Source: Limosilactobacillus oris
GTDB taxonomy: Bacteria > Bacillota > Bacilli > Lactobacillales > Lactobacillaceae
DNA length: 64,000 nucleotides
Reading direction: 5' to 3'
NCBI RefSeq assembly: GCF_025311495.1
Contig: NZ_CP104398.1
Coordinates: forward strand, 930,001-994,000
Shown here one piece after another: positions 5,424 to 23,554 of this stretch. The notes beneath the pieces are model-generated. The model made no database searches. It was given only the letters and a program-made list of their open reading frames with translations, and was not told the DNA's origin. The position numbers were made by a program, and so were the translations under genes. The first letter of the stretch is position 1. Each line of letters opens with the position of its first letter.

Positions 5424-6179
5424 CTAATGAACATTTTGCATCATACCATCAATTTGTGCGGCGTCGGTCTGTGATTGCAACGTGCCAATGCTAATCGTCT
5501 TTTGGTCGGCAGAGCCGCCGACACTGTACCTGACTGTGTCGCCCTTGACCTTGAAGGTAATACCACTAGCAGAATCATTGCCTTCGCTAAAAGTATAGCT
5601 GTCACCGTTTTGGGTGCAGGTAAAGGTTTCACGCCCCGGCATCCCCTGGTAGGTGTACTGGAAAAGCATTGCCCCCACCCGACGCGGGTCAGCAGAGGAA
5701 TTGCTCTGGCTAGAACTGCTTTCGTTGCCGCTGTCGTGCTTCTTAGCCAGGAACTGGTCAAGGTTCAGCTGACGCGTGGTTTTGGTCAACGTGTCGGTCG
5801 CCCAGTTGCTATCACCGGTCAGGGTCAGTTGGTTGCCAGATAGCCGTGCCGTAATCGGGCTGGTGACGTCGCTATCAGCGAAGTTCAGCGTGTATTCGTT
5901 GTTGCCGGTCTTCTTCCATGTCAGCTGGTCATTAGTGTCGCTGTTGACTGGGTCGGCGTAAACGTAGCGGCCAGTGCCGTTGGAGTTCAGCTGGACCGCG
6001 GACCCTTTACTGCTGTTTTGGTAAGTACCGACAACTAAAGCGGCCGCTTGCTTTGTTGAGGTGGCAGAAGAGCTCTGCTTACCGCTAGCGTTGTTCTGAC
6101 TATTATTGTCGCCACAGCCAGCTAAGGACAGCAAGGCGAGCACTGTTAGTGTAGTTCCTATAATTTTCGTTGCTTTCAT
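5424..6179 (-). CDS. Predicted lipoprotein, function unknown
   Basis: 251 residues. The N-terminus has a lipobox LSLAGC with Cys22 as the lipidated residue, so it should be anchored to the outer face of the membrane. A Ser/Asn/Gln-rich linker follows, then a segment with GTYQNSSKGSAVQLNSNGTG that suggests a small beta-rich domain. A second low-complexity Ser-rich stretch around residues 150-163 separates a C-terminal domain. It starts 15 bp after the stop of the 985-residue repeat protein, with AAAGGGA upstream, so the two are likely co-transcribed. No enzyme motif recognised. Confidence 0.75.
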   Translation of the reverse strand: MKATKIIGTTLTVLALLSLAGCGDNNSQNNASGKQSSSATSTKQAAALVVGTYQNSSKGSAVQLNSNGTGRYVYADPVNSDTNDQLTWKKTGNNEYTLNFADSDVTSPITARLSGNQLTLTGDSNWATDTLTKTTRQLNLDQFLAKKHDSGNESSSSQSNSSADPRRVGAMLFQYTYQGMPGRETFTCTQNGDSYTFSEGNDSASGITFKVKGDTVRYSVGGSADQKTISIGTLQSQTDAAQIDGMMQNVH

Positions 6180-6194
6180 TAATATCCCTTTCTT

Positions 6195-9152
6195 TTAGCC
6201 TACAACGTAACTATTTCCGTTAGCATCAAATGAGTAAATCTTACTGTACATATCATCATAGTTAGTATTATCAGACTGTGGATCGTGGGAAAAGCGGAAA
6301 ATAATCTGGTAGCGAGCGTTGCGGTCAAATTCGGCATCCTGAATATTGAATTCAAAACCGCTGTACTTGCTATCCCAAATATTAGGATAGGCTGCTTCTA
6401 TATCTGGCCGTTCATTCAAATCGGCCCACATTTCTTGAGGTGGAATACAGTTCAGTGTTGTCCGCGAATACTCCTGGCCATTTTTCAAAATAATTAATTC
6501 TGCAGCCCGCAAGTTAGCCCAGTCAGGCTGAGCACTGCGTTGAGCATACCAGTCCTTGTACTGACGGTTAGCAAAAGCGTTGCTGACCATCCATCCCTTT
6601 AGATACAAGTGCGGGTCCTCATTTGGCCCAGCGATATACCTGAACACCTCAAGATTCGATGCCTTTTGCACGTTTTGGTTCACGTCACTCGGCCGACTAG
6701 CAACCACCCGTGGGGCAAACCAGTAGTCGGTCCCATTACCGGCGGGGTCATTTGTCCACCGGCTGACTACCTGCAGTTGATCGCCACGAATATCCACACT
6801 AGGGGTAATTGTAACATTAAAGCCAGAATTATCAGCGTTGCTTACTCCCCGAAAGGCGTTCGCAACGTCTGGCCGGTAGCTGCCACTTTCAACTAGCTGA
6901 CGGCCAACTTCATAGCCCCGGGTCTGGTCAAAGAGGATAATGTAATGATATTGCTTGCCAAAAGCCTGGTTGCTGGCGTGCCAACCACCCATCTGTACCT
7001 GGCGGCCAGTCCAGCTTATGCCATCCAAATTGGCGTAGTTGCCCTGGTCAGCCAGCAGCTGAACCGGCGCAAACCAGTAGTCCACGTAGTTGCTGTTAGC
7101 GTCACGACTAGCGCTCCACCGGCTGATTACTTGGACCGGATCAGTCGCCATCGCCGAATCAAAGGCAATTGTCGTGTTAAAACCAGACTGGTCCGCGTTC
7201 ATCACTCCAGGAAAGGCTTTGGCAACATCTGGCCGGCTGCCGGAGTAGATTGTCTGCCGACCGAGTTCATGACCGTTCCGCGCGTCCAACACGATAATCG
7301 TGTGATAGTTCCGCCCCAACGCGGCATTCGTAGCGTGCCAGCCTGCCACTTGCAATCCCTGCTCTGTCAGGTGGTAACCGTCTAAATTGGCACGGTTAGC
7401 ATTGTCACTTAACAGGCGCTGGGGAGCGAACCAGTAGTCGACACAATTTCCGTTTCCAGCCCAGTCATCGGTGTAGCGGCTGATGAACTGGATTTGGTCG
7501 TTGGCATAGCGGGGGTCGTTAAGGTCAAAACTAGCACTAAAGCCGGACTGGTCCGCGTTGATGACAGTTGGAAAGGCCCGGCCAACATCAGCCCGGCTAA
7601 CGTTGTCAACCTGCTGACGGGTAATTTCTTGACCGCGGGTCGCATCCCAAACGATGACGTAGTGGTACTTCCGCCCCAAGGCAGCATTTGTGGCGTGCCA
7701 GCCGTTAACGACCACCTTGCCACCTGTCAGCTTAATCCCATCAACGTGGGCATTATTATCCATATTAATGTTAATCCGTTGCCCTAGCCAGAGGTCGGTG
7801 TGGTGACCTTCACCGCCATTAGCGTCATCAGAATAACGAGCAATGATCGTCAGCTGGTGGCCCAGTACTCCATTCGGCAGGCTAATCCGCTCATTAAAGC
7901 CAGATTGACTGCTGTTAGCCACGTTACGATACTGGGCTGCCACGTCAGGACGGGCGACTGGGTTAATCCGCTGCCGCTTAATTTCGGTCCCAGTCGTGTT
8001 ATCAAACACAATCAGCCAACCGTTCTGCAAGTCGGCACTGGTCGAAGCAGCGTGCCAGCCGGCCACATGGAGAAGCGGGTTGCCATTGTCATCCTGCTCT
8101 AATTGGTAGCCATCGAGGTAGCCGGCATTCACGTTGGCTTGCGGATTATTATAGCCGTCGCCAACCCAGTAGTAAGATTCGGTGTAGGTAAACTCAGCAT
8201 TGAGCCCTGCCGGTGCCATCATGTAAAGGTTCCGTGCCGATCCTGGCGCAGTCGAGCTGTTGCCACTCATCTGGTAGCCGCCAAGCGGGCCTGTGGTGTA
8301 GTTAATGTCATACCCGGAAAAGAGCTTCATACCATTTTGCGGCCGGATTACTTCCAACCATTGCGGCCGCCCCTGGGCATCTCGAATAATGTAGTAGAAG
8401 GCGTTCCCGTTTTTATATGGCGCCGCCGTATCATAGACACTAACGTCGCCATTAACCGCCCAGTATGGCTTAATCGTCAGTCCCCACACGCCGGGCTGCA
8501 CCGCGCCACTATCGGTGTTAACCCGAATCGTATTGGTGACGGTATTCCCGTTGACGGTCGCTTCTTTAGTTAGATATGAAACATTGTGCGGATCAGATGT
8601 ATGGGTCATTTGCGCGTCATTTTCATGGCGCATCGTGATCTGGTGGTCATTAATCGAGCCACTGACCCCTAGGTAATTCGCTTCGACGCTGTTCCGGAAG
8701 GTGCCAGCATAGCCAATCGTGCTGCTGTTGGTCGAGTCAAACTCAGCCCCGTTCGTTCCATAATTAACGCCATCGCTGAAGTAATAATCGACATTAACGC
8801 TTTCATCGTTTCTCAGCGAATGACCATTAGTCGTCACGTTATAAGAAAAGCCAGGCGTTGTTTGGTTGAGCCCCGTGTCTTCTCCCGTTGTCTGCACATT
8901 AACGTTAGCATCCAGGACAGCCGAGTCGATGTTCGCGGGGTCATTAGACGTCACACCCGGATACTGGGACGTGTCAATACCGCTCCAGGTAACCGTGGGC
9001 CGTGAATTGTAGCCAAATTGGCTGAATTGGGCCGCGGATGAGTTCCAATTGGTATCAGCGCTGGCAGTGGTTGCCCCGCCCACTAATAACAGTGTACCGG
9101 CGGCTAAGCCGATAACCCAGTTTTTCTTTGCTTTGTATAACTTTTTCCGCAT
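6195..9152 (-). CDS. Secreted 985-residue repeat protein with KxYKxGKxW-like signal
   Basis: The N-terminus KKLYKAKKNWVIG matches the KxYKxGKxW signal class except that the Gly is Lys; a hydrophobic run and ADTNW cleavage region follow. Residues about 33-340 form a unique domain. Then come five copies of a 105-125 residue unit starting near 345, 467, 584, 705 and 829. The middle three are clear, with GWHA(S/T)N, YHYII, RPDV and NADQSGF and a DYWFAP end. The first diverges, and the fifth is degenerate with an insertion. No LPXTG, LysM or transmembrane anchor is visible, so it is either released or held non-covalently. Its own promoter carries the TGAAA repeats. Adhesion or polysaccharide binding is possible but not shown. 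Confidence 0.85.
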   Translation of the reverse strand: MRKKLYKAKKNWVIGLAAGTLLLVGGATTASADTNWNSSAAQFSQFGYNSRPTVTWSGIDTSQYPGVTSNDPANIDSAVLDANVNVQTTGEDTGLNQTTPGFSYNVTTNGHSLRNDESVNVDYYFSDGVNYGTNGAEFDSTNSSTIGYAGTFRNSVEANYLGVSGSINDHQITMRHENDAQMTHTSDPHNVSYLTKEATVNGNTVTNTIRVNTDSGAVQPGVWGLTIKPYWAVNGDVSVYDTAAPYKNGNAFYYIIRDAQGRPQWLEVIRPQNGMKLFSGYDINYTTGPLGGYQMSGNSSTAPGSARNLYMMAPAGLNAEFTYTESYYWVGDGYNNPQANVNAGYLDGYQLEQDDNGNPLLHVAGWHAASTSADLQNGWLIVFDNTTGTEIKRQRINPVARPDVAAQYRNVANSSQSGFNERISLPNGVLGHQLTIIARYSDDANGGEGHHTDLWLGQRININMDNNAHVDGIKLTGGKVVVNGWHATNAALGRKYHYVIVWDATRGQEITRQQVDNVSRADVGRAFPTVINADQSGFSASFDLNDPRYANDQIQFISRYTDDWAGNGNCVDYWFAPQRLLSDNANRANLDGYHLTEQGLQVAGWHATNAALGRNYHTIIVLDARNGHELGRQTIYSGSRPDVAKAFPGVMNADQSGFNTTIAFDSAMATDPVQVISRWSASRDANSNYVDYWFAPVQLLADQGNYANLDGISWTGRQVQMGGWHASNQAFGKQYHYIILFDQTRGYEVGRQLVESGSYRPDVANAFRGVSNADNSGFNVTITPSVDIRGDQLQVVSRWTNDPAGNGTDYWFAPRVVASRPSDVNQNVQKASNLEVFRYIAGPNEDPHLYLKGWMVSNAFANRQYKDWYAQRSAQPDWANLRAAELIILKNGQEYSRTTLNCIPPQEMWADLNERPDIEAAYPNIWDSKYSGFEFNIQDAEFDRNARYQIIFRFSHDPQSDNTNYDDMYSKIYSFDANGNSYVVG

Positions 9153-9191: not shown

Positions 9192-9249
9192 ATTATAAGT
9201 GCTTTCTAAACGGATGTGGGCACATTTCAGGAATCGGGATATTCTTTCA
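9192..9249 (-). promoter_or_regulatory. Promoter with TGAAA direct repeats upstream of the repeat-protein gene
   Basis: Minus strand: TGAAA at 9245-9249 and again at 9225-9229 (20-bp period; both in the longer match CCTGAAA), then exactly 27 bp to TATAAT at 9192-9197. There is no good -35 box, as expected for an activator-dependent promoter. The promoter of the gene starting at 12166 has the same geometry. LytTR regulators typically bind paired direct repeats about two helical turns apart, and one is encoded at 12417. Confidence 0.6.
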
Positions 9250-9258
9250 GGCTGCGCT

Positions 9259-9289
9259 AAAAAAGCCCGCCCCGAAATGGAGCGAGCTT
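9259..9289 (-). terminator. Terminator of the four-gene secretome operon
   Basis: Minus-strand hairpin AAGCTCGC / GCGGGCTT, 8 bp with one G-U pair (9263-9270 and 9282-9289), followed by a run of T residues. It ends the operon 12166 to 9295 before the repeat-protein promoter. Confidence 0.85.
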
Positions 9290-9294
9290 AGATA

Positions 9295-10047
9295 TTAACG
9301 CCAACTATCTGGATCATGAGTTGGTTGAATGTAGTCTGGGTCATCCGGCGGCAGGTTGATTCGCCGTTTGAATTCCGGATCAATGTTCGGGTCGGCATTC
9401 ATTGCCGCCCGGGCCTTATCCTGCGGTCCCATTGAGCTAGCTGTTGCCGCATTGTTATTAGAAGCAGTATTTTCCTGCTGATTGTTGACGTTAGTTCCGT
9501 CAGTTCGGAGGTCGTTGAGGCTGGCATTCTCCGCTAATTGGCAGAGTGCATCGCCCGCATTATTGTCGTTGGCTACCTTGACCATCTCAGCAGTCGTTGC
9601 ACTCTTTTTCCGAAAGCCGCCATGACCATCCGAGATGTAAGTTTGGTCTCCTACTAATGTGTAATACGTAGAGCCAGCACTAGCTAGTTTGGCCTCATAA
9701 ACCACCTCTGCGCCAGCTGGCAATTTACCACTGACCCCAGCCTTTTTCGCGTCACCAGGGCTATACAAGTCGATAGTCAGCTGTTGACCGCTCTTGTTCA
9801 TTTGCTGAACATAGCGCTGGTGGTTCTTTAATCCCGCATAAAACATCACCACGGCCGCATTTTGCTTGGGCGTTAGGTTGGCCGGATCGAGTTTAGCCGA
9901 AGAAGAAGCAAGCTGATAACTAGGCTGGCTGCTCGTTGAAGAACTAGCCGTACTCTTACTGCTATCATGTTGGTTGCCACACGCTGTTAGTCCAATCCCT
10001 AATGCCACTACTATGAATAATGCTGATACTACTTTCCATTTTTTCAT
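9295..10047 (-). CDS. Predicted lipoprotein, function unknown
   Basis: About 250 residues, with lipobox GLTAC and then GNQHDSSKS. The same lipobox-to-linker string, with one change, starts the mature part of the neighbouring 135-residue lipoprotein, so the two are probably related. After a Ser-rich linker there is a mixed domain (about 50-165) with YSPGDAKKAG, then an Asn/Gln-rich stretch and a Pro/Asp-rich end. I chose ATG 10047 because MKKWK begins a normal signal; GGAGG is 13 bp upstream, somewhat far. Last gene of the operon, with a terminator immediately after. Confidence 0.75.
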   Translation of the reverse strand: MKKWKVVSALFIVVALGIGLTACGNQHDSSKSTASSSTSSQPSYQLASSSAKLDPANLTPKQNAAVVMFYAGLKNHQRYVQQMNKSGQQLTIDLYSPGDAKKAGVSGKLPAGAEVVYEAKLASAGSTYYTLVGDQTYISDGHGGFRKKSATTAEMVKVANDNNAGDALCQLAENASLNDLRTDGTNVNNQQENTASNNNAATASSMGPQDKARAAMNADPNIDPEFKRRINLPPDDPDYIQPTHDPDSWR

Positions 10048-10085
10048 GATTTCAAACTTTCCTCCCAAAATCTCACAATTAGATA

Positions 10086-10493
10086 TTATTCGGCCTGCTT
10101 TTCAATCCGGCCATCCTGATAAACGTAGTAGACATCCCCGTTGTCGTTGCGAACTGAATTATACGGAACGTAACTGCCATCGGTTGGTGCACCATGGGCC
10201 CCGCCATAGGTTCCGCCATCAATCGTCCAGCCCTGGTCACCCATTTTCTGGGTAATGTAGTCGACTGAGCTCTGCCCGCCGGTGAGGTGAACCGCCGCCG
10301 ATGACGAAGAAGCAGCCGCCGAGCTGCTCGACTGGCTGACCGAGCTAGAACCGCTCTTTTGTGACGACGAGCGGACCGTCTTACTGGTGGCCGAAAAACT
10401 GTCTGCACCCTTACTGCTATGATGTTGGTTGCCACACGCGGCTAACGTCAGTCCGGCTAAACAAGTGGTGGCGATTAGTGCTAATTTTTTCAT
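10086..10493 (-). CDS. Small predicted lipoprotein, function unknown
   Basis: 135 residues. Signal peptide with lipobox LTLAAC, then GNQHHSSKG and a long Ser/Ala-rich linker (about 25-75), leaving a C-terminal domain of only about 60 residues (GWTIDGGTYGGAHGAP, then YYVYQDGRIEK). AAGGAG lies 6 bp before ATG. It starts 21 bp after the upstream lipoprotein gene and is followed after 38 bp by a related one. Predicted to sit on the outer membrane face. Confidence 0.75.
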   Translation of the reverse strand: MKKLALIATTCLAGLTLAACGNQHHSSKGADSFSATSKTVRSSSQKSGSSSVSQSSSSAAASSSSAAVHLTGGQSSVDYITQKMGDQGWTIDGGTYGGAHGAPTDGSYVPYNSVRNDNGDVYYVYQDGRIEKQAE

Positions 10494-10514
10494 AATGTAC
10501 TCCTTAAATAAAAT

Positions 10515-11372
10515 TTATTCAGTTACATCTGCTGAGGTTGGTCCATAACTGCTTTGGTCGTCAAAGGCAGTAAAATTACCACCATCTAGCGTTCCATATA
10601 CCGCTTCAATATGGTATTTATGGTCACCCTTCTTGGTGATTGTGAACTTATCCTGCCCCTTTGCTCCAGGATAGGTTACCATGACGTACCCGCCATCGCT
10701 GGTTGCGTGACTGCCTTCATGGAAATCCTTGGCACTATCATAATTAAAGTCGCTGAAGCCGCCCTTTTGAATCAGCGCGGCCGCCTGATCAAAAGTCATC
10801 TCTGAAGAATTGCTAGAATCAGCACCAGCACTATTGGAATTCGTAGAATCATTGTCCGGCTTTGTGTAGCCATTTTCTTGAATTTTCTTTTGATCAGACA
10901 TTGCTGCCCGTTCAAACATACTTTGGAAGTCCGAAGCTGTCATTGTGGTTTCCCGAGTCCATGAATCAGCGTCCCACTCATACTCACCGTGATGATTATC
11001 CAAAGTTCGGAAGTGGTTTTTATCCTCTTTTATAGCCGTGACGGTATAGTAATTCTTATCATAGACATCGTGAAGCTTTAGCTGAAACTTCTGACCACTT
11101 AGGTGGCGGCAAGTTCCACGCATCACGCTACCATATTCACCATGGTTAGCGTCCCCCGTTTCCGGTTCCACTTCTTGAACCTTGCCGTCCTTAGTTAGTC
11201 GCAAATAATCGGTCTGCACATTGCCATCATTATCCTTGTCCCGATATTTAGCGTCAATTTGGTAAATCCCAGTTAACTTTGGTACTGTTTTTTTCGTTGT
11301 CTGTTTTCCACAGCCCGTGATGATTAGCAATAATCCAAGTACGGCAAGTGCTAATGCTATTGTTCTTTTCAT
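10515..11372 (-). CDS. Predicted lipoprotein with lactobacillus-type C-terminal domain
   Basis: 285 residues. Lipobox IITGC gives lipidated Cys21. Residues about 35-140 contain GIYQIDAKYRDKDNDGN and look beta-rich. After a Ser/Asn linker, the last 95 residues (MTFDQAAALIQKGGF, GGYVMVTYPGAKGQ, KYHIEAVYGT) resemble small domains common in lactobacillus lipoproteins of unknown role. I cannot name the family with certainty. AAGGAG precedes ATG. Second gene of the operon that starts at 12166, with a 50-bp gap. Confidence 0.75.
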   Translation of the reverse strand: MKRTIALALAVLGLLLIITGCGKQTTKKTVPKLTGIYQIDAKYRDKDNDGNVQTDYLRLTKDGKVQEVEPETGDANHGEYGSVMRGTCRHLSGQKFQLKLHDVYDKNYYTVTAIKEDKNHFRTLDNHHGEYEWDADSWTRETTMTASDFQSMFERAAMSDQKKIQENGYTKPDNDSTNSNSAGADSSNSSEMTFDQAAALIQKGGFSDFNYDSAKDFHEGSHATSDGGYVMVTYPGAKGQDKFTITKKGDHKYHIEAVYGTLDGGNFTAFDDQSSYGPTSADVTE

Positions 11373-11422
11373 ACTATCTCCTTATTTTCTATCCCTAATC
11401 TCCGTTTACCAATAAATTTTGC

Positions 11423-12166
11423 TTAGTTTCGGCGAAGCAACCACCAAATTCCTATTCCCCCAAGGATTAGTAACAGAAAGTTATCTGATATCCAAGAAAT
11501 AGTCCCGTTTATTATGGCAAAGCCTACATTAGCATCAACCAGCTGCTTTTCCCGATCATACGCTTGCTGTTTTTGGTTAACAATTTGTTGCTTCTTAGCT
11601 ACTAACCGCTCATTTTCAGCAATAATTTGCGGTTGGGCATTTATCAGCTTTTGGGTTTCTTGTTTTTGCTTGTAGATGCTCTGCACCCGTTCTCGTAATT
11701 CAGATGACGTATCATTGCCAATATAGTTTTGCAGATTATTAAGCGCATCAGCATATAACTTTCCATGCTCATCAGTAGCCTGTTGGTCCACTGCTTCTGA
11801 CTTATCCAGACCAGCCGAAAGTGCATTAACCTCTTTATTATTTTCTACTGCTACCTCGTGCATCTGCTGCTTGATTGCATCAGCCTTAGGCTTATTTAGA
11901 TTACCACTAATAATTTTAATCGCTGGCTCAACTGATGGGGATTGTTCCTTACCACTTAGTGTATTAGCTGAATTGGTCCCTTGCGCGGCTTCAGCACTCT
12001 CACTGCCCTGTACGGCCACATTATTCTGCGCGCTCACAGTCTGTTGTTGACCCGCGGCTGTTTGATCAGCGTGCCCAACCTGACCGTTTAATAAAAAGCT
12101 GGCTCCCAAGGCAGCAGTGAATAAGGCTGTCTGCCGCCACGTTAGTTTGGTTTTACTGTTATCCAT
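11423..12166 (-). CDS. Exported coiled-coil protein with C-terminal membrane tail
   Basis: 247 residues. An N-terminal signal (RQTALFTAALGASFLLNG, then GHADQ) suggests export. The mature part is Gln/Ala/Ser-rich, then has long helical, charged stretches with heptad-like spacing (about 100-215). A hydrophobic helix at about 219-242 ends in WWLLRRN. So the protein should be tethered outside the cell by a C-terminal helix with a short positive tail, like a sortase substrate without LPXTG. First gene of a four-gene operon, with GGGGGAG 10 bp before ATG. Its promoter has the TGAAA repeat pair. Confidence 0.75.
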   Translation of the reverse strand: MDNSKTKLTWRQTALFTAALGASFLLNGQVGHADQTAAGQQQTVSAQNNVAVQGSESAEAAQGTNSANTLSGKEQSPSVEPAIKIISGNLNKPKADAIKQQMHEVAVENNKEVNALSAGLDKSEAVDQQATDEHGKLYADALNNLQNYIGNDTSSELRERVQSIYKQKQETQKLINAQPQIIAENERLVAKKQQIVNQKQQAYDREKQLVDANVGFAIINGTISWISDNFLLLILGGIGIWWLLRRN

Positions 12167-12206
12167 TTACTATTTTCTCCCCCAAAGTATCATTTACACA
12201 TCTCCG

Positions 12207-12264
12207 ATTATAAAAAAATCCCCTTAATAATTGAGGAAGTTTCACGAATATGCTCTTTTTTTCA
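12207..12264 (-). promoter_or_regulatory. Promoter with TGAAA direct repeats upstream of the secretome operon
   Basis: Minus strand: TGAAA at 12260-12264 and 12240-12244 (20-bp period), then exactly 27 bp to TATAAT at 12207-12212. The inner repeat reads ATTCGTGAAA; the matching repeat at 9225-9234 reads ATTCCTGAAA. It lies in the space shared with the divergent response-regulator gene. Confidence 0.6.
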
Positions 12265-12416
12265 TTCATCGTAATGGCGATTAGTAATAAAGTGCGGATT
12301 ATTTCAGTAAAACGCCATAAGTTTAATTTGGCCTTGCCAGATCTCTAGTTTTTACCTGCCACTTTTCTTATCATTAGTGTATAAATGTTACTTTATTTCT
12401 GGGAGAAAAATGATCC

Positions 12417-13157
12417 ATGAATATTTATATTCTCGAAGACCAGTGGGCTCAGCAAGCCCACCTCGAAAAGACACTGCACGAGATTGAAGAAGAACAACAG
12501 CTGGCCCCCTTACACATCAATCTCTTTTCCAACGTTACTGATTTCTTAAAGGGCCTCCCCTCACCGAGTGTGGAAAACCTCTTTTTACTGGATGTCGAAA
12601 TTAACGACGACTTGCAGGCCGGCCTTAAAATCAGCCAGCGCATCCGCCAAACTGACTTGTTCTCCTCAATTATCTTCATCACGGTACATAATGAGCTCTT
12701 GCCGACTACCTACCATTACGAATCAGAAGCCCTGGATTTTATTGCCAAAGATCAGGACAACGTTAAACAAAAACTCACTAAAGACCTGCTTCACGTTGCC
12801 AGTAAATCCAAGCATTTTCCCGCACCGACACTCTTGCTTAAGGTTACCAACGGTTTTCTTCGTGTCAGCTTGGACGATATCGTGTATTTTGAACCCAGTC
12901 CAACTAATACCCACCAGTCATTAATGCACACCGTTAATAACCAAATCACAACCATCAACGCTAATCTCAACCAGTTGTTAGACCGTTCACCGCTCTTCTT
13001 TCGGACGCACAAGCACTGCCTGGTTAACTTGAATAAGGTCAGCAAGATTGATACCCACAATCATCTGGTAACACTTAGTGGTGCGCAAGCTCCCCAGCCC
13101 TTGTCACGGCTAAAAAATAAAGCCCTGCTCAGTAAACTGGCAGAACTCAATAACTAA
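12417..13157 (+). CDS. LytTR-family response regulator
   Basis: 246 residues. The receiver domain (1-125) has the acidic pair Glu7-Asp8, phospho-acceptor Asp59 in LFLLDVE, and conserved Thr (FITVH) and Lys (IAKDQ). The C-terminal LytTR domain (about 140-243) has FFRTHKHCLVNLNKVSKI, the typical DNA-binding signature of AgrA/ComE-type regulators. GGGAG lies upstream of ATG. It faces away from the exported-protein operon, whose promoter is 150 bp upstream. The cognate kinase is probably the one at 13772, but a gene on the other strand lies in between. Likely activator of the TGAAA-repeat promoters (inference). Confidence 0.92.
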   Translation: MNIYILEDQWAQQAHLEKTLHEIEEEQQLAPLHINLFSNVTDFLKGLPSPSVENLFLLDVEINDDLQAGLKISQRIRQTDLFSSIIFITVHNELLPTTYHYESEALDFIAKDQDNVKQKLTKDLLHVASKSKHFPAPTLLLKVTNGFLRVSLDDIVYFEPSPTNTHQSLMHTVNNQITTINANLNQLLDRSPLFFRTHKHCLVNLNKVSKIDTHNHLVTLSGAQAPQPLSRLKNKALLSKLAELNN

Positions 13158-13170
13158 CGCTACTTTCTCA

Positions 13171-13737
13171 TCAATTCCCACTATCTAATTTAGTCATCCG
13201 AAAGGTTTTAATTTCAGGATGATCACTAACCCGACAATGACCATAATCATTGAACTTCCCCCGCCGGCTACTATAATAAAAAGTTAACCGGGGATGGCTA
13301 TCAACCACAAACATCATTTTATCACGGCTGTCGACATAGGCGGCCTTTTCTTTTTTACCTTTGAGGTGATTAGAAACGTAGAGTGTCCCGCGCGCGTAAC
13401 CATAGTGGCGCCGTGAAATCCCGCCACGCAAGTATTTAACCATCACAACCTGGTGGTGACGGTTATAAAAATCTACCCGAAACGGAGTTACCGTCATTGA
13501 AGAGGTCCGTAATACCGGTTGGTTTTGCTTAATAACTAATGCCAGCAAAATAATAGCGAAAAAGCAAATTACTCCGCCTAGTGCCCATCGCTGGTATCGT
13601 TTAAGCTGGCGTTTCATTACTAACCGGCCAGGCTGATTACTAATTGGCAAAGGCTGGCCACAATTGATACAATTACTAGCAGTTCGGGGATTCAGTTTCC
13701 CACAATGCGGACACGTAATACTCATTTTTTTATTCAT
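13171..13737 (-). CDS. Zinc-ribbon membrane protein
   Basis: About 188 residues. The N-terminus has CPHCGK and CINCGQ, two CxxC pairs of a zinc ribbon, followed by a basic stretch and one transmembrane helix (about 55-75). The remaining roughly 115 residues should lie outside and are rich in Tyr, Arg and His. AAGGA lies 9 bp before ATG 13737. Convergent with the response regulator (13-bp gap, no hairpin) and divergent from the kinase (34-bp gap). It might sense or modify the two-component system, but nothing in the sequence shows this. Confidence 0.75.
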   Translation of the reverse strand: MNKKMSITCPHCGKLNPRTASNCINCGQPLPISNQPGRLVMKRQLKRYQRWALGGVICFFAIILLALVIKQNQPVLRTSSMTVTPFRVDFYNRHHQVVMVKYLRGGISRRHYGYARGTLYVSNHLKGKKEKAAYVDSRDKMMFVVDSHPRLTFYYSSRRGKFNDYGHCRVSDHPEIKTFRMTKLDSGN

Positions 13738-13771
13738 AATCATCAATCCTTATGTTTGGAGTGTATTTTTC

Positions 13772-15145
13772 ATGACGTTTGTTAATGTTAACAACCCATT
13801 TGTCCAAGCAGCCTCACCGACCTACCTGTTCCTATTCTTGATTAAGGTATGCCTATTCTACCCGCTACTATTTTGGGGATGTTACCGCCATGTCGCCCGG
13901 CAAAGGATCCCCGTCAGCTTTTACGTTGTATTAGGAGCCATTTTTATTTTTTGGCAACCAAACTTATTTCTCAACGACCTGGTTACCATTTGCCTAGCCA
14001 TAATGGCAGTTTTCTACCTAGCCAACCCATTTGGCGACCGCCTGACGACCATTGTCAGCCAATTTGGCTATAGTATATTAGTTTACTACTTTGCCTCAAC
14101 AGTATGTATGCTACTGTCGCGAATTATCCTCGTCAAGTATCCCCAATTTGGTTCTTTACTGTACTTATTTTTAGTACCAATTATTTACGGATTAGCCTTA
14201 CTGGTAATTCGAATTGTCCGCCCCATCAGCAACCGCTACCTAGCCCGGGTTAACAACCGGCACCCCATCGCAGAATGGTGTCTTAGTCTTCTTTTTATTC
14301 CACTAAGTCTCTTTTTCTTTTTTGTCCAATATAATCAACCAGCATTTAACCAGCTCCTAGGCGTTAATAGCCTAACTGGGAACTCCGCAGCCCTGCTCAT
14401 CGCACTTAGCTACTTTGTCCTAGCTATTTTGATAATGAACCATATCGGCAAGGACCTTTACCAGCGTGACCTCGCCACTTTTGCTACCCAACAATTGAAT
14501 AGTTTTGCTAATTACACGAGTGAACTAGAAGTGATGTATGATGACTTACGTCGCTTCCGTCACGACTATAAGAACATTTTAATTAGCCTAAATAGCGCTC
14601 TCGATGATAACAATATTGAGGATGCAAAGCAGTCGCTTCACCAGCTGACTCAATCTTCTAATCGAATTATTGACCTACCGACCGGTGTCTTGGGCGCTCT
14701 CCAAAATATCACCAATTCAGGAATTAAATCAATCGTCTACCAAAAGATCAGCGTCGCTATTAAAGCTCACTTGCATCCTCGTTTAGAGGTTGTGCGACCG
14801 ATTGACCTGACAAAAACGCTTCAATCCCTGGATGCCATCCGGATCATCGCTATTCTACTAGACAATGCCATCGCTGCTGCTAAAAACTCCACACAAAAGG
14901 AAATCAGCTTGAGTTTGTTTGAAAACGACAATGCGCAATTCATCATCGTTGGCAATTCGACTAAGGAATCACGAGTGGACCTTGAATTACTAGCTAAGAT
15001 TGAACACTCAGTCAGTATTAATAGCAGCCACCACCTGGGCCTGCGTAACCTAAAGATTATCCTTGGCCACTATCCTAATGCTGTTAACGACCGGAGCAGC
15101 GACCACCACTGGTTAGAACAAAAGATCGTCTTACCCAAAAATTGA
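13772..15145 (+). CDS. GHKL-type sensor histidine kinase (AgrC/ComD-like)
   Basis: 457 residues from the chosen ATG, which has GGAG 10 bp upstream; the frame is open further upstream, but there it would overlap the gene on the other strand. About six hydrophobic segments fill residues 10-235. A coiled linker leads to the phospho-acceptor motif FRHDYKN (His264), then an ATPase domain with N-box LLDNAIAAAKN (near 365) and G-box LGLRNLKI (near 424). This is the HPK10-like class that pairs with LytTR regulators and often senses peptides. No AgrB/AgrD-like genes are nearby. A terminator follows. Confidence 0.9.
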   Translation: MTFVNVNNPFVQAASPTYLFLFLIKVCLFYPLLFWGCYRHVARQRIPVSFYVVLGAIFIFWQPNLFLNDLVTICLAIMAVFYLANPFGDRLTTIVSQFGYSILVYYFASTVCMLLSRIILVKYPQFGSLLYLFLVPIIYGLALLVIRIVRPISNRYLARVNNRHPIAEWCLSLLFIPLSLFFFFVQYNQPAFNQLLGVNSLTGNSAALLIALSYFVLAILIMNHIGKDLYQRDLATFATQQLNSFANYTSELEVMYDDLRRFRHDYKNILISLNSALDDNNIEDAKQSLHQLTQSSNRIIDLPTGVLGALQNITNSGIKSIVYQKISVAIKAHLHPRLEVVRPIDLTKTLQSLDAIRIIAILLDNAIAAAKNSTQKEISLSLFENDNAQFIIVGNSTKESRVDLELLAKIEHSVSINSSHHLGLRNLKIILGHYPNAVNDRSSDHHWLEQKIVLPKN

Positions 15146-23349: not shown

Positions 23350-23389
23350 CCATTAACTTCTTAAATTAACGAATCAATCTTTAGGAAGC

Positions 23390-23547
23390 GCTCCGCAGTT
23401 GTGCGACAGTCCATGACCTCTTAGATCATGGCCCAACGGCTGGCAGGAATAAGACTACCGCCGTTTCGGCACCTTCCCCTTTCACAACTGGTCCAGCGCT
23501 TATTCGCCTCACAGCCGTTACTGATGAAAAGTGCAACCTCTTCATTT
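23390..23547 (-). ncRNA. Lysine riboswitch (L box) aptamer
   Basis: On the minus strand the leader contains, in order, AGAGGTTGCAC, CAGTAACGGCTGTGAGGCG, TGTGAAAGGGGAAGG followed by TGCCGAAACGG, CCAGCCGTTGGGCC and GGACTGTCGCAC. These are the conserved pieces of the lysine aptamer (compare the Bacillus subtilis lysC leader: AGAGGTGCGA, AAAGGGGAGCG, GCCGAAG, GGCTGTC). It ends in a terminator just before lysP. OFF-switch action is inferred from that layout. Confidence 0.9.
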
Positions 23548-23554
23548 CATCAAT

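Follow-up and report, generated by a model that had tools for sequence, protein, structure and literature searches.

Paired direct repeats upstream of surface-protein genes in Limosilactobacillus: a candidate binding motif and regulon of a LytTR response regulator

A pair of direct repeats with a period of 20 bp was identified upstream of genes for secreted and surface proteins in a 64-kb stretch of DNA (the window). The window belongs to the 2.0-Mb chromosome of a Limosilactobacillus closely related to L. oris, a kinship taken from near-identical loci. The motif, its period and its placement are conserved beside one family of LytTR response regulator genes and upstream of surface genes. As judged from the sequences, these paired repeats are very probably the DNA switch by which one two-component system controls surface display in Limosilactobacillus. 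The first-pass annotation had put forward a new LytTR binding motif and regulon, and this proposal is supported by the period, the surface targets and the adjacency of the regulator, from which we infer that the regulator binds the pairs. The features of the window are listed in Table 1.

Table 1. Features of the motif-bearing locus, in window coordinates.
Feature	Position	Strand	Remark
DUF3642 lipoprotein gene	5424..6179	-	15 bp behind the 985-aa gene
985-aa secreted repeat protein gene	6195..9152	-	KxYKxGKxW signal peptide; proposed target
-10 box TATAAT (985-aa gene)	9192..9197	-	27 bp from inner repeat; no good -35
Direct-repeat pair TGAAA-N15-TGAAA	9225..9249	-	Half-sites GCCTGAAA and TTCCTGAAA; promoter of 985-aa gene
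250-aa lipoprotein gene	9295..10047	-	Gene 4 of four-gene operon
135-aa lipoprotein gene	10086..10493	-	Gene 3 of four-gene operon
285-aa lipoprotein gene	10515..11372	-	Gene 2 of four-gene operon
247-aa secreted or membrane-anchored protein gene	11423..12166	-	Gene 1 of four-gene operon
-10 box TATAAT (four-gene operon)	12207..12212	-	27 bp from inner repeat; no good -35
Direct-repeat pair TGAAA-N15-TGAAA	12240..12264	-	Four-gene operon; intergenic region common to regulator gene
Additional weaker pair TTAAA-N15-TGAAA	12302..12326	-	62 bp from the 12240-12264 pair
LytTR response regulator gene	12417..13157	+	Receiver domain and LytTR; proposed binder of the pairs
Zinc-ribbon membrane protein gene	13171..13746	-	Antisense, between regulator and kinase
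AgrC-like GHKL sensor kinase gene	13772..15145	+	Cognate partner

Window promoters and further copies in the genome

The motif TGAAA-N15-TGAAA-N27-TATAAT is present without a single mismatch at 9192-9249(-) and 12207-12264(-), exactly where it had been annotated, and no further copy was found in the window, even when two mismatches were allowed. Shuffled windows contained on average 0.07 matches to the full motif, with two mismatches allowed, and never two. The inner repeats, annotated as ATTC(C/G)TGAAA, read ATTCCTGAAA and ATTCGTGAAA. The absence of a good -35 box was confirmed as well, as neither promoter has more than three of six matches to TTGACA at spacers of 15-19. The intergenic region 12167-12416 comprises two tandem pairs, since a weaker one accompanies that of the four-gene operon. 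All window positions were ranked with a matrix of 27 sites from other species only, which is partly circular for the TGAA letters because most of these sites were found with that pattern; position 12264 came first, 9249 second and 12326 third. As a control, a score of 19 was reached in 2 of 100 random windows.

The DUF3642 lipoprotein gene is probably located on the same transcript as the 985-aa gene. L. viscerum and Ca. L. intestinipullorum likewise have a DUF3642-like lipoprotein gene next to the regulator locus, where it lies behind a degenerate pair. The family to which the repeat protein belongs matches 38 places in the window genome and tens in several relatives. For the 247-aa protein no clear orthologue was identified, and no relative in the genus exceeds 28% identity. 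Because the former family is multicopy and the latter gene lacks a clear orthologue, conservation was judged by adjacency to the regulator and by target class. Apart from this locus, a lysine riboswitch (105 bits) was identified at 23378-23550(-) of the window.

The whole-genome scan that the first-pass annotation had suggested revealed a third exact copy at 1056715-1056772(-), upstream of a gene encoding an LPXTG protein with a Rib domain, as well as a copy with one mismatch at 292983-293040(-). In addition, a degenerate copy is located at 1.875 Mb upstream of a broken repeat-protein gene. The pair at 292958-293040(-) (L008 1385-1558; in L. oris, L078) is among the best of the genome and is followed by no ORF; the roughly 100 nt behind it terminate in a strong hairpin (z -3.7) and are a candidate small RNA under the control of the window-type regulator. 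Another pair, scoring 20.7, was found at 1849632(+) (L061), with a TATAAT about 26 bp downstream, upstream of a prfC-like gene. This one may be a chance match.

Recurrence in the genus and geometry of the box

When a looser -10 box was combined with a ribosome-binding site, 23 distinct matches were obtained in 50 genomes of the genus, compared to 7 for the reversed pattern. The genes behind 16 of the 23 encode secreted or surface proteins, namely KxYKxGKxW proteins with choline-binding-type repeats, LPXTG proteins, C39-peptidase proteins and lipoproteins; two encode zinc-ribbon membrane proteins and five neither. With TATAAT and one mismatch allowed, the exact motif is only weakly enriched outside its own genome, and the signal became clear once other forms of the -10 box were allowed and a ribosome-binding site was required. 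Furthermore, periods from 11 to 41 were scanned in 17 genomes, which were chosen solely for having the regulator, and 20 matches were counted at period 20 against about three at each other period. The recurrence in related species, for which a scan had likewise been proposed, is thus genus-wide and bound to a period of exactly 20 bp. In its strict CTGAAA form, the motif has 18 matches in the 50 genomes of the genus, while 239 genomes from the family's other genera together contain 8, and per genome it is about ten times rarer in those genera than in Limosilactobacillus.

These counts bear on the explanation that two AT-rich promoters merely look alike by chance. TGAAA and TATAAT are presumably common words in such genomes, but the expectation in shuffled windows is far below the two copies observed, even with two mismatches allowed, and the third genomic copy, the excess of matches over the reversed pattern and the peak at period 20 refute a chance likeness, which we regard as extremely improbable.

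The alignment of 33 sites gives two TTNACTGAA(A) half-sites with 11 bp between the 9-bp boxes, and hence a period of 20. The outer half-site carries a C at -1 and a T at -4, each in 25 of the 27 foreign sites, and both letters were absent from every search pattern. On the coding strand, TTNACTGAA has the usual LytTR orientation. Reading the reverse complement as ACATTTCAG, which we take to be a ComE-type box, was dropped, as the base counts of the 33 sites give TTNACTGAA on the coding strand.

In the target promoters the -10 box mostly starts 27-30 bp downstream of the inner repeat. The brnQ-type species depart from this, which is a weak point of the proposed switch: their nearest good -10 box is 43-44 bp away from the pair. 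Published LytTR sites consist of 9-bp repeats separated by 11-13 bp and located 4-11 bp upstream of the -35 region (PMC6193735), and the 9-11-9 pairs with their usual distance to the -10 box fit this geometry. LytTR activators are also known to act at a position that matches the spacing between inner repeat and -10 box (PMC6193735; PMC2714321). In sequence, TTNACTGAA has the core ACT-A alone in common with the published LytTR box ACCACTTAN (PMC6193735), and its matches to the PlnC-type box TACGTTAAT are scattered.

The regulator family and the placement of the pairs

The regulator of the window contains a LytTR domain (PF04397, 52.7 bits with a cut-off of 22.6) and a receiver domain (PF00072), whose 29.5 bits are just below the cut-off of 30.2. 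The phosphorylatable aspartate D59 as well as T89 and K111 are invariant among its relatives. Its best full-length relative of solved structure is ComE of S. pneumoniae (4cbv, E 6e-32), and that of the DNA-binding domain alone is AgrA. The neighboring kinase matches PF14501 and the NCBIfam model AgrC; the NCBIfam values are 1.4e-23 for AgrA (regulator) and 1.7e-24 for AgrC (kinase), both under the equivalog cut-off. The arrangement of regulator, zinc-ribbon gene and AgrC-like kinase is conserved in relatives, with the zinc-ribbon gene antisense between the two others in nearly all of them (13171-13746 in the window; L088-L096, L139). Other zinc-ribbon genes of L. caccae and of genome G015 carry the motif as targets in their own right. 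No agrB/agrD-like genes were seen beside the regulator among the listed ORFs of the window.

That the gene at 12417 is the only LytTR regulator holds true for the window, but the genome carries three other LytTR genes. One of them, the paralogue RR2 at 1555 kb, is 39% identical to the window regulator. Upstream of RR2-type regulators (300 bp; L026, L030), the different repeats GCATTGAGCGTCA, GCATTCAACTGACG and TTCATTGAGCTG were seen about 21 bp apart by eye, which are perhaps the box of the RR2 paralogue. The fourth LytTR regulator (L064 4632-5372, genome position about 1754.7 kb) is 46% identical to the window regulator and decaying, with an in-frame TAG and a glycine replacing the phosphorylatable aspartate (YLLGLEV); its copy in L. 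oris is broken, too.

A gene of the window-type regulator family is located within 10 kb of 10 of the 20 matches at period 20, compared to none of the 85 matches at other periods (Fisher P 6e-9). Strong pairs, meaning those scoring over 23 where shuffled stretches of 330 bp reach at most 11.9, were mapped onto a tree of 30 regulators. Of the 12 members of the window clade, 8 have such a pair no more than 320 bp ahead of their regulator gene, although these represent fewer than eight independent events, as several brnQ-type species are close relatives. Strong pairs were also found upstream of the regulators of L. caccae (C11), G015 (C2) and faecipullorum. In the sister clade of the window clade the upstream motif takes the form of two tandem pairs, which in L. 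caccae C11 and G015 C2 are 47 bp apart. The two pairs of the window thus have counterparts of this 47-bp spacing, located correspondingly, in L. caccae and two other genomes. Since genome G011 has four motif-bearing targets, its C34 regulator was expected to be of the C11 type and to carry the motif, and two tandem pairs were indeed found upstream of this gene. Over the genus, regulator and motif co-occur (11/21 vs. 2/29, P 6e-4, uncorrected for relatedness). Two findings weaken this link: near the regulator of its closest relatives, L. viscerum and Ca. L. intestinipullorum, only degenerate pairs of 13-14 bits are present, and genome G021 retains one site although no window-type regulator was found in it.

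The proximity of the pairs to the regulator family argues against binding by a regulator of an unrelated family, with the nearness to LytTR genes being incidental. Such a regulator would account for a box that resembles the published LytTR boxes (cf. ACCACTTAN, PMC6193735) in its core alone, but it would leave the LytTR-like geometry, the pairs that several lineages carry ahead of the regulator gene itself and the fulfilled expectation for G011 as coincidences. We consider it very unlikely.

Less remote, though still unlikely, is the explanation that the pairs are real sites bound chiefly by a LytTR paralogue such as RR2, or by both regulators with crosstalk, so that the window regulator would share them with others. 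In its favor, and against the main reading, L. oris (G020) retains two good sites although its single window-type regulator (contig C6) is broken, which leaves the RR2 paralogue alone intact; RR2 likewise adjoins a surface gene, encoding a KxYKxGKxW protein. However, the regions upstream of RR2-type and other paralogues are free of strong pairs, with scores of -4 to 2 for the RR2 type, where the different repeats GCATTGAGC/GCATTCAACTG are found, and the strong pairs occur at the regulators of the window type and the caccae-C11 type. This points to the window-type regulator as the main binder, and the paralogue at 1555 kb could share some of its sites.

Proposed switch and comparison with known systems

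We consider it likely, on the basis of these comparisons, that the pairs are the half-sites for a dimer of the regulator encoded at 12417-13157, which is phosphorylated by the kinase and activates surface-protein promoters lacking a -35 box. In response to a signal, the adjacent GHKL kinase would phosphorylate the LytTR regulator, whose dimer would bind the TTNACTGAA-N11-TTNACTGAA half-sites. Placed directly ahead of the site where a -35 box is missing, it would replace the -35 contact and recruit RNA polymerase to promoters with a -10 box alone, which means activation rather than repression. The predicted targets are, in the window, the genes for the repeat protein and the lipoprotein behind it as well as the four-gene operon and, at 1.057 Mb, the LPXTG gene. 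The dimer would also bind ahead of the regulator gene, which suggests autoregulation, and the regulator probably activates its own gene. A wider version, to which we give somewhat less than even chances, is a genus-wide surface-display regulon, in which a ComE/AgrA-like two-component system with the zinc-ribbon protein as a third component would act through a diverged LytTR box to control sortase-anchored, KxYKxGKxW and lipoprotein genes jointly and, in the L. oris group, also the candidate small RNA at 293 kb.

If this holds true, a defined DNA switch for the display of surface proteins would be at hand in a genus whose members live as commensals in the gut and vagina, one sensor kinase would be linked to adhesin-like families (KxYKxGKxW, LPXTG, lipoproteins), and a simple sequence rule would allow finding the targets in any Limosilactobacillus genome. 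LytTR regulators with repeat-pair sites are already well known; the box sequence, the 11-bp gap as a rule and the surface-protein regulon with a zinc-ribbon partner appear to be new. An earlier description of the motif or regulon was not found in the searchable literature, which covered few subscription papers.

The LytTR regulators PlnC/PlnD of Lactiplantibacillus plantarum (PMC2714321) also bind two tandem repeats immediately ahead of the promoter, of which the right one, nearer to the promoter, is better conserved, as here. Their box is TACGTTAAT and they control bacteriocin operons with an induction peptide, whereas the box described here is TTNACTGAA, the targets encode surface proteins and no peptide gene was identified. 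In the comC promoter of S. pneumoniae, the two ComE repeats are 12 bp apart (PMC6010298) instead of 11, and ComE controls the competence regulon through a box different from TTNACTGAA.

The LytTR Regulatory Systems HdrRM and BrsRM (PMC6193735) share with the present system direct repeats upstream of promoters, the core ACT-A and autoregulation, which is here proposed; the 11-bp gap is found in a minority of their sites. They consist of a LytTR regulator and an inhibitor membrane protein without a kinase, and the receiver domain and the kinase therefore rule out that the window system is of this type. Two-component systems described for L. reuteri 100-23 (PMC3873254) have LytR/AlgR regulators that adjoin bacteriocin-type transporters or peptidases, an architecture unlike that of the window cluster.

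Finally, AgrCA of staphylococci and LamCA of L. plantarum combine, as here, a LytTR regulator with an AgrC-type GHKL kinase, and the lam system of L. plantarum is reported to influence adherence (PMC12405376). In contrast to both, a zinc-ribbon membrane protein gene is found beside the window regulator, and no agrB/agrD-like genes were seen there among the listed ORFs.
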